The notes beneath the pieces are model-generated. The model saw only the letters and a program-made list of their open reading frames with translations, was not told the origin of the DNA and ran no database searches. A DNA stretch of 64,000 nt, from assembly GCA_019347945.1 (NCBI GenBank), contig JAHWKK010000012.1, positions 1 to 64,000 on the forward strand, given 5' to 3'. Numbering within the stretch: position 1 is the stretch's first letter; the number at the start of each line of letters is the position of its first letter. Both the position numbers and the translations under genes were made by a program. This document shows, piece by piece, positions 3,064-7,991 of the stretch. This DNA comes from Acidobacteriota bacterium (GTDB lineage: Bacteria > Acidobacteriota > Thermoanaerobaculia > Gp7-AA8 > JAHWKK01).

Positions 3064-5219
3064 ACGACTTTTTCCACGCCCGTATGCGACATCTCACGGC
3101 TGCAGCTGCCGGAACGGTCGTCATGATCGTCTACATCTATTTCGGCATGGTCGCCTGGAACTATCGGCAAATGTCCGACGTCCTGCTCAGCGAGCAGTGG
3201 CGAAATCCGACGAAGATATTCACGAAGACCGATCAGGAGGAACCAGTCGTCGAGGTCTACGGCGCCGACTGGCGGCAGTCGGAACCTGTGTTGATCGAAC
3301 AGATTCCGGATCATGTCCAGAAGGCGTTCATCACCGCGGAAGACATTCGATTCGAGCGGCATCTCGGGATTGATCCGATCGGAATGCTGCGGGCTCTGAT
3401 CGTCAATGTCCGCGCGGGAGCGGTCCGGCAGGGAGGAAGCACGATCACCCAGCAACTCGTCAAGACCAAGCTCCTTTCAAATGAACGTACGTTCGCGAGA
3501 AAGCTCGTCGAGGCACCGCTGGCCGTGCATCTCGATCGGAAGCTGTCTAAGAACGCCATCCTCGAGGCGTACCTGAACGAGGTCTACCTCGGGCATTCCG
3601 ACGGCCGTGCGATTCGAGGGATCGACGAGGCGGCGCCGATCTATTTCTCGACCGGGGTCGAAGATCTGAGCGTGGCGGATGCGGCTCTTCTCGCTGCCAT
3701 CGTGCGGGCACCGAATCGCGACAATCCCGACAGAAATCCGGAGCTTTCGAAGACGCGCCGCGACAGGGCTCTCGAAACGATGAAAGACGAGGGATTCATC
3801 GAAGAAGCCGAGCTCGAACGAGCGAAGGAAGCAGAGGCGAAATTCCGACGAGGCGCACGAACGGAATCGAGCCAGTACCGCTGGTACCTGCGGGGGCTTC
3901 GAACAGAGGTCGAGCAGCGCGTCGGAAGGAACGCGCTCGAGCGCGGAGGCCTTCGAATCATCGCCTCGATCGATCCGTCGGCCCAGCGAAGTGCCGAAAT
4001 CGCGGTTCGCCAGGGCTCGGCGCGCCTGCGAAACCAATACTCCTGGATCCGGAACCCGGAGACGGGCGGACCTCTCCAGATCGCGCTTCTCTCGATCAAT
4101 CCCTTCGACGGCGGCGTTCAGGCTCTGGTCGGTGGGATCGACGGCGAGTTCGATCGAACCAGACTGATGAGGCGTCAGCCGGGATCCGCGTTCAAGCCGT
4201 TCGTCTATTACCAGGCAATTGCTTCGAAGAGGATCTCCGCTTCGACTTTGATCGAGGATCTGCCGCTCGAGGTGGACATGGGAGGTGGCGAAGTCTGGAC
4301 GCCCCACAACTACGATGAGAAATTTCATGGCCGGGTGACGGTCCGGACCGCGTTCGAGCACTCGCTCAACGTCCCTGCCGTGCGAATCGCGGAGGATACG
4401 GGACGGGGCGAAGTCATTCGGACGGCGCAGCGTTTCGGACTCGATTCGGATTTTTCCGCGGTTCCCGCGCTCGCTCTCGGCGTCGAGGAGGTTAGCCCGT
4501 GGGAGCTGACGTCCGCGTACACGACGTTTCCAAATCTCGGCACCCGGGTCGAGCCGCACTTTGCTGCGCGGATCGAGAATTCGGATGGACGCGTTCTCTG
4601 GGAGCACGAGCCGAGACCCGTGAAGGTGACCGATCCGGCCCCCGCATACGTGATGCACTCGCTCCTGCGAGGCGTAGTTCAGAGAGGAACCGCTCGCCGG
4701 CTCCAGCAATACGGACTCGGGTACGTCGCGGGTAAGACCGGCACGACAAGCGATTACCGCGACGCATGGTTCGTCGGCTACACCCCGGAGATGGTGACGA
4801 CCGTGTGGGTCGGATTCGACGACGGCTCGCCACTGCGACTGTCGTCATCGGAGGCGGCGCTTCCGATCTGGGGTCGATATATGAACGACTTCGAGCCGAA
4901 GCGGAGAAATATCGAGCCACCGAATGGGGTGAACATCCTGCAGGTCGATCCGGAGACCGGCTACATCTGGCAGGAGGGATGTCCGGGACCGCGGGAGGAG
5001 GTATTTCTGCCGGATACCGAGCCTGCTCGAAAGTGTCCGCGCGGGATATTCGGAAAGTACGCTCGTGACCTGATGATCAATCCGGAACTGGCCGAGGAGC
5101 CCGCGGCGATTACGCTCGACAAGTTCAGACGGTGGTCCGACGAGGCGGAGCAGGGAAGGCGAACCTTTCAGCGAAGGCTGAAGAAGTGGCGCGACCGGAT
5201 CGAAGAGATTTTCGACTGA
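3060..5219 (+). CDS. Class A penicillin-binding protein (PBP1, GT51 plus transpeptidase)
   Basis: 719 aa bifunctional peptidoglycan synthase anchored by one N-terminal membrane segment (residues ~12-32). The GT51 glycosyltransferase is at ~75-250: ITAEDIRFERHLG with catalytic E94, QGGSTITQQL at 124-133, and RKLVE with the second Glu at E151. The transpeptidase is at ~335-625: SAFK (catalytic S376, K379), SLN at 435-437 and KTGT at 559-562. All key residues are present. It polymerises lipid II and cross-links the glycan in the periplasm. The C-terminal ~90 residues are acidic/basic and outside the catalytic domains. GTG 3060 is used; ATG 3084 would shorten the cytoplasmic tail. Followed by the SAM-II-like leader of the methionine gene. 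Confidence 0.95.
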   Translation: MNDFFHARMRHLTAAAAGTVVMIVYIYFGMVAWNYRQMSDVLLSEQWRNPTKIFTKTDQEEPVVEVYGADWRQSEPVLIEQIPDHVQKAFITAEDIRFERHLGIDPIGMLRALIVNVRAGAVRQGGSTITQQLVKTKLLSNERTFARKLVEAPLAVHLDRKLSKNAILEAYLNEVYLGHSDGRAIRGIDEAAPIYFSTGVEDLSVADAALLAAIVRAPNRDNPDRNPELSKTRRDRALETMKDEGFIEEAELERAKEAEAKFRRGARTESSQYRWYLRGLRTEVEQRVGRNALERGGLRIIASIDPSAQRSAEIAVRQGSARLRNQYSWIRNPETGGPLQIALLSINPFDGGVQALVGGIDGEFDRTRLMRRQPGSAFKPFVYYQAIASKRISASTLIEDLPLEVDMGGGEVWTPHNYDEKFHGRVTVRTAFEHSLNVPAVRIAEDTGRGEVIRTAQRFGLDSDFSAVPALALGVEEVSPWELTSAYTTFPNLGTRVEPHFAARIENSDGRVLWEHEPRPVKVTDPAPAYVMHSLLRGVVQRGTARRLQQYGLGYVAGKTGTTSDYRDAWFVGYTPEMVTTVWVGFDDGSPLRLSSSEAALPIWGRYMNDFEPKRRNIEPPNGVNILQVDPETGYIWQEGCPGPREEVFLPDTEPARKCPRGIFGKYARDLMINPELAEEPAAITLDKFRRWSDEAEQGRRTFQRRLKKWRDRIEEIFD

Positions 5220-5222
5220 GGG

Positions 5223-5251
5223 TTGCGTTGCGGTACGAATGGGCGTACATT
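5223..5251 (+). promoter_or_regulatory. Candidate promoter of the SAM-II leader
   Basis: TTGCGT (5223-5228), 17-bp spacer, TACATT (5246-5251). It predicts a transcript starting near 5258, a few bases before the first stem of the aptamer, which is what a riboswitch leader would need. The -35 matches consensus at only three positions. Confidence 0.45.
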
Positions 5252-5257
5252 CGTGAA

Positions 5258-5316
5258 GTAGCTGGATTGATTTGGGGTCGCTTGCAACCAGCCTAAAAAA
5301 AGCTAAAGAGCCGAAC
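5258..5316 (+). promoter_or_regulatory. SAM-II (SAM_alpha)-like riboswitch aptamer
   Basis: The stretch holds the sequence blocks I know from SAM-II aptamers in order: GATTTG (5269-5274), GCTTGCA followed by CCA (5280-5290), a TAAA/A-rich segment (5294-5301) and GCTAAA (5302-5307). The P1 stem is GCTGG 5261-5265 with CCAGC 5288-5292, extendable through a bulged A by TT/AA. It is directly upstream of a methionine-synthesis gene, the expected context. The pseudoknot pairing between the loop and the 3' GAGCC is weaker than I would like, and three extra bases separate P1 from GATTTG. No covariance search was run. Confidence 0.7.
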
Positions 5317-5334
5317 CGAAACAACGGATCGAGC

Positions 5335-5366
5335 AAGCCCCACGGATGTGGGGCTTTTTTCTTTTT
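5335..5366 (+). terminator. Intrinsic terminator in the leader of the methionine gene
   Basis: Perfect 9-bp stem AAGCCCCAC (5335-5343) / GTGGGGCTT (5348-5356) with a GGAT loop, running into a T-rich tract through 5366. It lies between the SAM-II-like aptamer and the start codon, so it is an attenuator. An alternative pairing of aptamer bases 5275-5285 with 5333-5341 (GCTTGC with GCAAGC, then GGG with CCC across a TC bulge) would break the terminator stem and could be the antiterminator. Confidence 0.9.
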
Positions 5367-5375
5367 GGGGAGAAT

Positions 5376-7235
5376 GTGCAGGACTTTCTGAAAGCGCTTT
5401 CGGACTCGACCGCGTACCTGTTCGACGGTGCGATGGGGTCGATGCTCTACTCGCGCGGTTTCTACATCAACCGCTGCTGGGAGGAGCTGAATCTCCGCGA
5501 GCCGCAGGCGGTTCTCGATATCCACAGGGAGTACCTGGCGGCCGGATCGGACATTCTCGAGACCAATACTTTCGGGGCGAATCGATTGAAGCTTTCCGAG
5601 TTCGGCGCCGTCGAGCAGCTCGAAGAGATCAACCGGCGTGCGGTCGCACTGGCGCGGACCGCGGCGGGCGACGAGGCGTGGATTGCCGGAGCCATCGGGC
5701 CTCTGGGTGTCCGGATCGAGCCGTACGGTCCCACAGGGGTCGATGAAGCCGAGGAGATTTTCCGGGAACAGCTCAACCCGATGGTTTCCGAGGGGATCGA
5801 TCTGGTCGTGCTCGAGACCTTCGGTTCGATCGACGAGCTGGCGGCCGCAATCACGGCAGTCCGTTCGGTGAGCTCGCTGCCGATCGTCGCACAGATGACG
5901 ATCGGACCGGACATGCGAACCGCGTATGGCCACACGCTCCGGCAGATTGCGGCTGCGCTGGAACAGCTTCAGGTCGACGTGATCGGTCTCAATTGCTCGG
6001 TGGGACCGGATCTGATGCTCGACGCGGTCGAGGAACTCGCCGGCCTGACCTCCCGGCGGATCTCCTGCCAGCCAAACGCGGGATTCCCTCGTGAGGTTCA
6101 CGGTCGGAAAATCTACATGGCGTCTCCCGACTACATGGGGAAGTACGCGAAGCGGCTGGTCCAGAAGGGTGTGAAGCTTCTCGGCGGTTGTTGCGGCACC
6201 ACGCCGGACCACATTCGGATCATGGCGGAGGCGGTACGTCCGCTCACTCCCAGGCGGCGGCCGGTCATCGTCGAGCCGGCCGAAGAGAATGGCGGTCTCG
6301 ACCCGCTTCCGCTGGCGGAGCGATCGGCGTGGGGCGAAAGGCTCGCGCAGGGAGAGTTCGTCACGACGATCGAGATCGTACCGCCGAAGGGAACCGATCC
6401 TGATCGCCTGCTCGAGAAGGTCGCTGCCATCCGCGATGCTGGTGTTCACGCCGTGAATGTTCCGGATGGGCCGCGGGCGCAGAATCGGATGGGTGCCCTC
6501 GCCACGGCTGTCCTGATCCAGCAGCGCACCGGGATCGAAGCCGTCCTGCATTACTGCTGTCGCGACCGGAACCTCCTCGGAATGCATTCGGACCTCCTGG
6601 GAGCCGCGGGGCTCGGTTTGAACAATCTTCTTCTGATCACCGGCGATCCTCCGAAGATGGGCCCCTATCCGGATGCGACCGCGGTCTTCGACATCGATGC
6701 GATCGGACTGACCAACATGGTGAGTCTGATGAATCGCGGTCTCGACCTGGCCGGCAACCCGTTTGGTGATCGGAGCCGGTTCGTGATCGGTGTCGGAGTC
6801 AACCCCGGACACGTCGACCTCGATTACGAGCTCCGCCGGTTCGACTGGAAGGTCAAGGCGGGTGCCGAGTACGCGATCACCCAGCCGGTTTTCGACGTCG
6901 AGCAGCTCGAGTGTTTCCTCGGAAAGGTGGAGCACTACGGTATCCCGATCGTTGCCGGAATCTGGCCTCTGCTCTCGTACCGGAACGCGATGTTCATGAA
7001 CAACGAAGTCCCGGGAGTGTCGGTTCCGGAGGAGACGATCGATCGAATGCGGCGCGCCAGCGAAGCCGGCAAAGAGCATGGGGTTCGTGAGGGGGTCGCG
7101 ATCGCCCGCGAGATTCTCACCGCGGTGAGGCAGAGGGTCGCCGGGGTTCAGGTGTCGGCCCCTCTCGGCCGGGTCGATCTCGCGATCGAGGTCTTCGAAG
7201 GTCTCGTGGAGTCGTCGCAGACGAAGATCCGGTGA
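5376..7235 (+). CDS. Homocysteine S-methyltransferase / methylenetetrahydrofolate reductase fusion
   Basis: About 619 aa. Residues ~10-290 are the Zn-dependent homocysteine S-methyltransferase barrel: FDGAMGSML near the N-terminus and the Zn ligands in LNCSVGP (C207) and GGCCGTTP (C272, C273). Residues ~325-600 are a MetF-type FAD barrel beginning TTIEIVPPKGTDPDRL. The architecture is that of Bacillus YitJ-type bifunctional proteins, supplying methyl groups from folate for methionine. The frame is open from ATG 5346, but that codon lies inside the terminator hairpin without a ribosome site; GTG 5376 after GGGGAG, close to where family proteins begin, is preferred, although the spacing is only 3 nt. 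Probably SAM-repressed through the leader. Confidence 0.92.
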   Translation: MQDFLKALSDSTAYLFDGAMGSMLYSRGFYINRCWEELNLREPQAVLDIHREYLAAGSDILETNTFGANRLKLSEFGAVEQLEEINRRAVALARTAAGDEAWIAGAIGPLGVRIEPYGPTGVDEAEEIFREQLNPMVSEGIDLVVLETFGSIDELAAAITAVRSVSSLPIVAQMTIGPDMRTAYGHTLRQIAAALEQLQVDVIGLNCSVGPDLMLDAVEELAGLTSRRISCQPNAGFPREVHGRKIYMASPDYMGKYAKRLVQKGVKLLGGCCGTTPDHIRIMAEAVRPLTPRRRPVIVEPAEENGGLDPLPLAERSAWGERLAQGEFVTTIEIVPPKGTDPDRLLEKVAAIRDAGVHAVNVPDGPRAQNRMGALATAVLIQQRTGIEAVLHYCCRDRNLLGMHSDLLGAAGLGLNNLLLITGDPPKMGPYPDATAVFDIDAIGLTNMVSLMNRGLDLAGNPFGDRSRFVIGVGVNPGHVDLDYELRRFDWKVKAGAEYAITQPVFDVEQLECFLGKVEHYGIPIVAGIWPLLSYRNAMFMNNEVPGVSVPEETIDRMRRASEAGKEHGVREGVAIAREILTAVRQRVAGVQVSAPLGRVDLAIEVFEGLVESSQTKIR

Positions 7236-7328
7236 TCCGCGGCGGCAGCCGGGCGCTCTGCTATCCGCCTCCGCAGTAGACACCTGATGAATAATCCGGG
7301 TTAGGATATGAATCCGGAGGACGCATTC

Positions 7329-7991
7329 ATGATGACCACGACCCTCGACGCGATCGTCGACAGCAGACGTTTACTCGACCACTCCTTCTATCGGCGCTGG
7401 AGCTGCGGCGAGCTTCCGCTCGACGAGCTGCAGACCTATGCGAAGGAGTACTTTCACTACGCGCTCGCCTTTCCGACGTTTCTGTCGGCCGCACACGCAC
7501 AGAGCGAGGACATCGAAGTCCGGCAGCAGATACTCGAGAATCTCATCGAAGAAGAGCGAGGGCCGGGCAACCATCCCGAGCTGTGGCTGAGATTCTGCGA
7601 GTCTCTCGGACTCGACCGCGAGGAAGTTCTCAGCCACGAGCCATCCGCAGCGACACGGGAACTGATCAGGACGGTGCGTGAGCTGGCGCTTTCGAGCACG
7701 CATGAAGGACTCGCTGCTCTGTACGCTTACGAATCTCAGGTGCCGGACGTCGCTCGAGCGAAGATCGACGGCCTGGCGGAACATTACGGAATCTCGAGAC
7801 CCCGCGACATCGCATTCTTCACCGTCCACATGACGGCCGACGTCGAGCACTCCGAGACCGCGCGGCGCCTGATCGAACAGCTCTGTGATGGCGACCGGAA
7901 GCGTGAGGATGCTGCGGAGGCAGTCGAAGCGACGACGCGCGCTCTTTACGGATTTCTCGATGGAGTCGAGCAGCAGGCTCGCGCTGCCTGA
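7329..7991 (+). CDS. CADD/TenA-like haem-oxygenase-fold protein (possible pABA-forming enzyme)
   Basis: About 220 aa, all-helical, PqqC/TenA superfamily. The segment NLIEEERGPGNHPELWLRF and the later FFTVHMTADVEH hold the Glu/His residues expected for a dimetal site in the CADD-like branch. Chlamydial CADD makes p-aminobenzoate by self-sacrifice of a tyrosine; that role would fit its place next to a folate-using methyltransferase/MTHFR, but it is inference, and another oxidative role is possible. ATG 7329 is chosen because GGAGG (7316-7320) is 8 nt upstream; the earlier ATG 7308 has no such site and overlaps a -10-like TAGGAT. Overlaps the sirtuin gene by 32 nt. Confidence 0.75.
   Translation: MMTTTLDAIVDSRRLLDHSFYRRWSCGELPLDELQTYAKEYFHYALAFPTFLSAAHAQSEDIEVRQQILENLIEEERGPGNHPELWLRFCESLGLDREEVLSHEPSAATRELIRTVRELALSSTHEGLAALYAYESQVPDVARAKIDGLAEHYGISRPRDIAFFTVHMTADVEHSETARRLIEQLCDGDRKREDAAEAVEATTRALYGFLDGVEQQARAA

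Follow-up and report, generated by a model that had tools for sequence, protein, structure and literature searches.

A conserved SAM-II riboswitch predicted to control a BHMT-MTHFR gene by transcription termination in Acidobacteriota

Many SAM-II riboswitch leaders have a terminator after P2 and ahead of the gene, and an OFF switch has been inferred for them (Corbino et al. 2005, PMC1273637). Between 2005 and 2007, this terminator-linked form was described as the most frequent one for SAM-II in alpha- and beta-proteobacteria. In 2007 the transcription mechanism of SAM-II was called experimentally unestablished, and a category of combined transcription and translation control was named in the same paper (PMC2258182). 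The SAM-II riboswitch of metZ in Sinorhizobium meliloti has more recently been predicted to be transcriptional, and the terminated RNA has been detected (Scheuer et al. 2022, PMC9373788). In a SAM-II leader of Shinella, which reads from its sequence as metZ-type, an arm of the terminator can pair with the 5' strand of the aptamer P2. A search of a collection of open-licence papers found none on SAM-II in Acidobacteria.

The DNA analysed here, called the window, is a stretch of 64,000 nucleotides (positions 1-64,000 of contig JAHWKK010000012.1) from a soil Acidobacteriota bacterium (Thermoanaerobaculia; Gp7-AA8; JAHWKK01). Upstream of a gene for a bifunctional homocysteine S-methyltransferase / methylenetetrahydrofolate reductase (BHMT-MTHFR), it carries a leader with a SAM-II aptamer and an intrinsic terminator; all features of the window described below lie on the plus strand. 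It resembles the S. meliloti metZ leader (PMC9373788) in that an intrinsic terminator follows SAM-II and a transcriptional OFF switch is predicted, whereas metZ belongs to another phylum and is another gene. The first-pass annotation of this DNA, which had rightly considered an Acidobacteriota host, took both the transcriptional mode and the host to be out of the ordinary. Terminators after many SAM-II aptamers (PMC1273637) and the predicted transcriptional metZ switch (PMC9373788) contradict the first point, and the many Blastocatellia-group loci whose SAM-II matches exceed the Rfam cut-off contradict the second. Neither host nor transcriptional mode is a new kind; the locus is an example of a type already described in other bacteria. 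The annotation was thus right in outline about the mechanism and wrong about its rarity.

The aptamer spans 5256-5316 and matches the Rfam SAM-II model RF01726 with 39.8 bits, with an E-value of 2.9e-6 in a permissive search of positions 5100-5500 (401 bases) and of 6.3e-6 over the whole 3.7-Mb genome. The SAM_alpha model RF00521 gives 22 bits. Because both scores fall just under the curated gathering scores (44 bits for RF01726 and 36 bits for RF00521), an Rfam search with default thresholds calls no match in the window, and the permissive run resolves this silence. Relatives reach scores of up to 43.5. The Rfam cut-off is a curation threshold and no structural feature. The 5' strand of P1 (GCUGG, 5261-5265) pairs with its 3' strand (CCAGC, 5288-5292), and the P2 pseudoknot is formed by a 5' strand at 5276-5285 and a 3' strand, GCUAAAGAGCC, at 5302-5312. 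The core elements GAUUU at 5269, CUUGCA at 5281 and GCUAAA at 5302 are nearly invariant across the window's order, and the SAM-II blocks that had been read by eye, namely GATTTG (5269-5274), GCTTGCA (5280-5286) followed by ACCA, and GCTAAA (5302-5307), are all in place. Over 31 sequences the P1 pairs are formed in 91.6% of cells, with exchange between GC and CG at the P1 base pair, and the P2 pairs in 95.7% and 100%. Four pairs of P2 are invariant and hence uninformative by themselves. The leader therefore shares with RF01726 and RF00521 the P1 stem, the P2 pseudoknot, GAUUUG, CUUGCA, the A-rich loop and GCUAAA, as well as a methionine gene downstream and, in relatives, a promoter directly 5' of P1. 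It differs from both families in its score and in the G-rich 5' strand of P2 (GGGGYC), which matches the terminator arm. No match to SAM-I (RF00162) is present in the window or in the whole genome. Judged from its sequence, the leader is a genuine SAM-II riboswitch that is predicted to bind SAM.

The BHMT-MTHFR gene occupies 5376-7235 (NF006396, PF02574 and PF02219), and its product scores 724.7 bits against NF006396, for which the cut-off is 453. The start codon is most likely GTG 5376, preceded by the Shine-Dalgarno-like GGGGAG at 5367-5372; an in-frame ATG at 5346 falls within the terminator. A gene for a CADD-family putative folate metabolism protein (7308-7991; TIGR04305, 262.5 bits against a cut-off of 200) probably belongs to the same operon. 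Upstream on the same strand, a penicillin-binding protein gene ends with a stop at 5219, 36 nt 5' of the aptamer. Given this proximity, the hairpin might merely terminate the upstream gene, with the likeness to an aptamer being due to chance or decay. However, the aptamer match is significant genome-wide at the E-value given above, a conserved promoter lies between the two in relatives, and relatives have this leader in front of the same gene; this conservation refutes such an explanation in practice, and we give it hardly any credence. The promoter common to most relatives is TTGACA-N17/18-TACATT upstream of P1. The window retains TACATT (5246-5251) 17 nt after a weaker TTGCGT (5223-5228), which aligns with the relatives' hexamers and places the predicted transcription start a few bases 5' of P1. 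A rule-based scan called no promoter at 5223-5251, and the window's hexamers are weak when taken alone.

The leader was found in 18 of 120 relatives, all from the window's order (19 genomes when that of the window is counted), with no match to this order-type leader in the genomes outside that order. It is conserved in 18 of the 19 genomes of the order in 34 distinct copies, every one of which precedes BHMT-MTHFR or MetH, and a terminator lies shortly 3' of GCUAAA in 31 of the 34. Where related loci come from named records, their labels read gp7 or Thermoanaerobaculia Acidobacteriota. Plasmid loci of Paracoccus and Pseudorhodobacter were left out of the comparison, and virus contigs contain no exact copy of the leader pattern. 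Four metH leaders (L019, L029, L030 and L112) depart from the SAM-II core, with GAGUUG for GAUUUG, GCCUAAA for GCUAAA and CUUUCA for CUUGCA; these are perhaps altered or decaying aptamers.

The strong terminator noted in the first reading of the sequence consists of a stem-loop of nine pairs at 5335-5356 followed by a T-rich tract, and extends over 5335-5365. Intrinsic terminators are otherwise scarce: the scan found six others in the window and 15 other loci, four of them within the window's 64 kb, and these six make up the control set of unrelated terminators. The 5' arm of the terminator is overlapped by the 3' strand of an antiterminator (5330-5342), which pairs with the P2 5' strand and the two bases before it (5274-5285). 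The pairing segments proposed earlier, GCTTGC at 5280-5285 against GCAAGC at 5333-5338 and the CCC at 5339-5341, are confirmed in position. The duplex between aptamer and terminator arm has an energy of -15.6 kcal/mol in the window. Because bases 5276-5285 are shared by P2 and the antiterminator, the ligand-bound fold is predicted to exclude the antiterminator.

This alternative pairing is conserved across the order, where the pseudoknot strand, UGGGGYC, and the terminator 5' arm, GGCCCCA, are complementary to each other. In an alignment of composite rows (A1; 14 aptamer and 10 terminator bases), the antiterminator pairs are formed in 92.6% of cells, compared with 41-60% when the strands are slid by 1-3 columns in the 3' direction and 33-59% in the 5' direction; the anchor was set by the analyst on the CCCC run, which favours invariant pairs but not covarying ones. 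Ten cells are changed on both sides, as against 2.4 in shuffles, and none of 500 shuffles reaches this number. The compensatory changes (C-G to U-A in five leaders; the outer pair being U-A, C-G or U-G) are confined to two of the seven pairs. Cognate duplexes have a mean of -16.7 kcal/mol, whereas swapping the terminators between leaders gives -15.4 kcal/mol. None of 5000 permutations is as low, also within gene type, and since the permutation ignores relatedness, this figure is support and no probability. For the window alone, the antiterminator is unexceptional against shuffled tails, 7 of 100 of which reach it. Pairing through the P2 3' strand is at chance level in the window's order (-9.3 versus -9.1).

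Folding of the leader as far as 5345, where the 3' arm of the terminator is absent, gives a minimum free energy structure of -20.4 kcal/mol that is essentially the antiterminator first proposed from the letters. In the full-length leader, the terminator fold (-35.6 kcal/mol) is about 9 kcal/mol more stable than the antiterminator fold (-26.8 kcal/mol). The ON state of the window would therefore have to be kinetic, depending on trapping. In growing-chain folding, the antiterminator dominates until about 4 nt before completion of the terminator stem, after which the terminator takes over. Six other leaders (L006, L008, L011, L015, L024 and L036) keep the antiterminator at equilibrium. When the P2 strands are blocked, the terminator is predicted to form at 0.65-1.0 in every leader tested, the blocked strands being a stand-in for SAM binding in programs that do not represent the pseudoknot.

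Computation thus yields the aptamer identity, its conservation and gene context, the terminator and a conserved, covarying alternative pairing. Very probably, this SAM-II riboswitch represses BHMT-MTHFR through transcription termination as a SAM-OFF switch. When SAM is low, the P2 5' strand (5274-5285) would pair with 5330-5342 as soon as the latter is transcribed, which would prevent the terminator and let the polymerase continue into the gene. When SAM is bound, the P2 5' strand would be locked in the pseudoknot with 5302-5312 and leave the terminator 5' arm free, so that the hairpin 5335-5356 could form and transcription would end 5' of the gene. We infer SAM binding, actual termination, and the direction and size of the response. 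The OFF logic fits the product, as high SAM would turn methionine synthesis off. The architecture set out in the first-pass annotation, in which aptamer bases supply an antiterminator with OFF logic, is supported by the covariance search, the order-wide conservation and the covariation. Counted against the switch is the second SAM-II copy of the genome (G000:C12:109838-109898, minus strand), which stands before metH and has no terminator, though most metH leaders of relatives have one. For this metH leader, a SAM-dependent switch at the ribosome site was considered but gained no support, the pairing of the Shine-Dalgarno sequence being unchanged in simple folding.

The aptamer could also be real and the terminator constitutive, giving low read-through and release of a small riboswitch RNA; SAM would then act on translation or RNA stability. 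A constitutive terminator to which no antiterminator could be assigned has been reported for S. meliloti metA (PMC9373788), and in the window the terminator fold is favoured at equilibrium in both states. However, the Shine-Dalgarno sequence of the window lies outside both the aptamer and the terminator stem, and throughout the order the complementarity between aptamer and terminator is kept, with covariation, so we regard a constitutive terminator as unlikely. Dual control, in which a single helix switches termination as well as ribosome access, belongs to a category already defined (PMC2258182). In eight loci (L003, L004, L008, L024, L033, L037, L010 and L112), only 5-10 nt separate the terminator stem from the start codon, and no Shine-Dalgarno sequence is visible other than the GGGG of the terminator 3' arm. 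This shared GGGG suggests that transcription and translation may be controlled together in these relatives. In the window, by contrast, a separate GGGGAG follows the T tract and dual control is not needed there; as an account of the window it is improbable. Control by termination remains the preferred reading for the window.

The leaders before this gene or a homologue appear to vary among Acidobacteriota. SAM_alpha matches above the Rfam cut-off precede BHMT-MTHFR in 19 loci of Pyrinomonadaceae and others of the Blastocatellia group, and these leaders also carry terminators. They are like the window's in phylum, in gene and in the order of SAM-II and terminator. They appear to differ in wiring, in that theirs uses the P2 3' strand and the terminator loop whereas the window's uses the P2 5' strand. 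In L059, L063, L107 and others, about ten pairs can form between the aptamer P2 3' strand GCUAAACAGC and the terminator loop GUUGUUUAGC, and this pairing has a mean of -14.3 kcal/mol versus -7.5 kcal/mol in shuffled sequences. Wiring through the P2 5' strand was tried for the Blastocatellia leaders and is at about chance level (-6.6 versus -6.3 when swapped; reached in 9% of permutations). Therefore, the window's wiring is not generalised to them. One SAM-II match at 48.6 bits, above the Rfam cut-off (L116; G452:C280:14234-14294, minus strand), lies directly before a gene for a protein with a signal peptide and a CarboxypepD_reg domain, as found in TonB-dependent receptors; this is a possible case of an outer-membrane receptor under SAM-II control.

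SAM-I (RF00162) occurs in sister orders of the window's class. In each of four loci inspected (L124-L127, from sister families of that class) it lies ahead of a BHMT-MTHFR-type gene, whose protein is about 40% identical to that of the window. The sister-order element is like the window's in its position before such a gene and unlike it in its aptamer, which is unrelated to SAM-II. The search gave no SAM-I in the window's order, and none of the relatives searched had both SAM-I and SAM-II. In the tree, Gemmatimonadota and other Acidobacteriota, in which Rfam gives no SAM-II match at its cut-off, lie between the two SAM-II clades. A more sensitive model gives weak SAM-II matches in some of the intervening Acidobacteriota (L053, L061, L065 and L073), and the tree is compatible with SAM-II having arisen either once or twice. 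On balance, we slightly favour the view that the two terminator wirings (P2 5' strand with terminator 5' arm; P2 3' strand with terminator loop), together with SAM-I in sister orders, reflect replacement of expression platforms and of riboswitch class around one target. As far as computation goes, the two wirings and the exchange of SAM-I and SAM-II appear to be new here and to be the more unusual point.

The 34 SAM-II leaders of this order, with their explicit covarying antiterminator, make the transcription mechanism of SAM-II easy to test. Their contrast with the Blastocatellia leaders would show how one small pseudoknot can drive terminators through either strand of P2.
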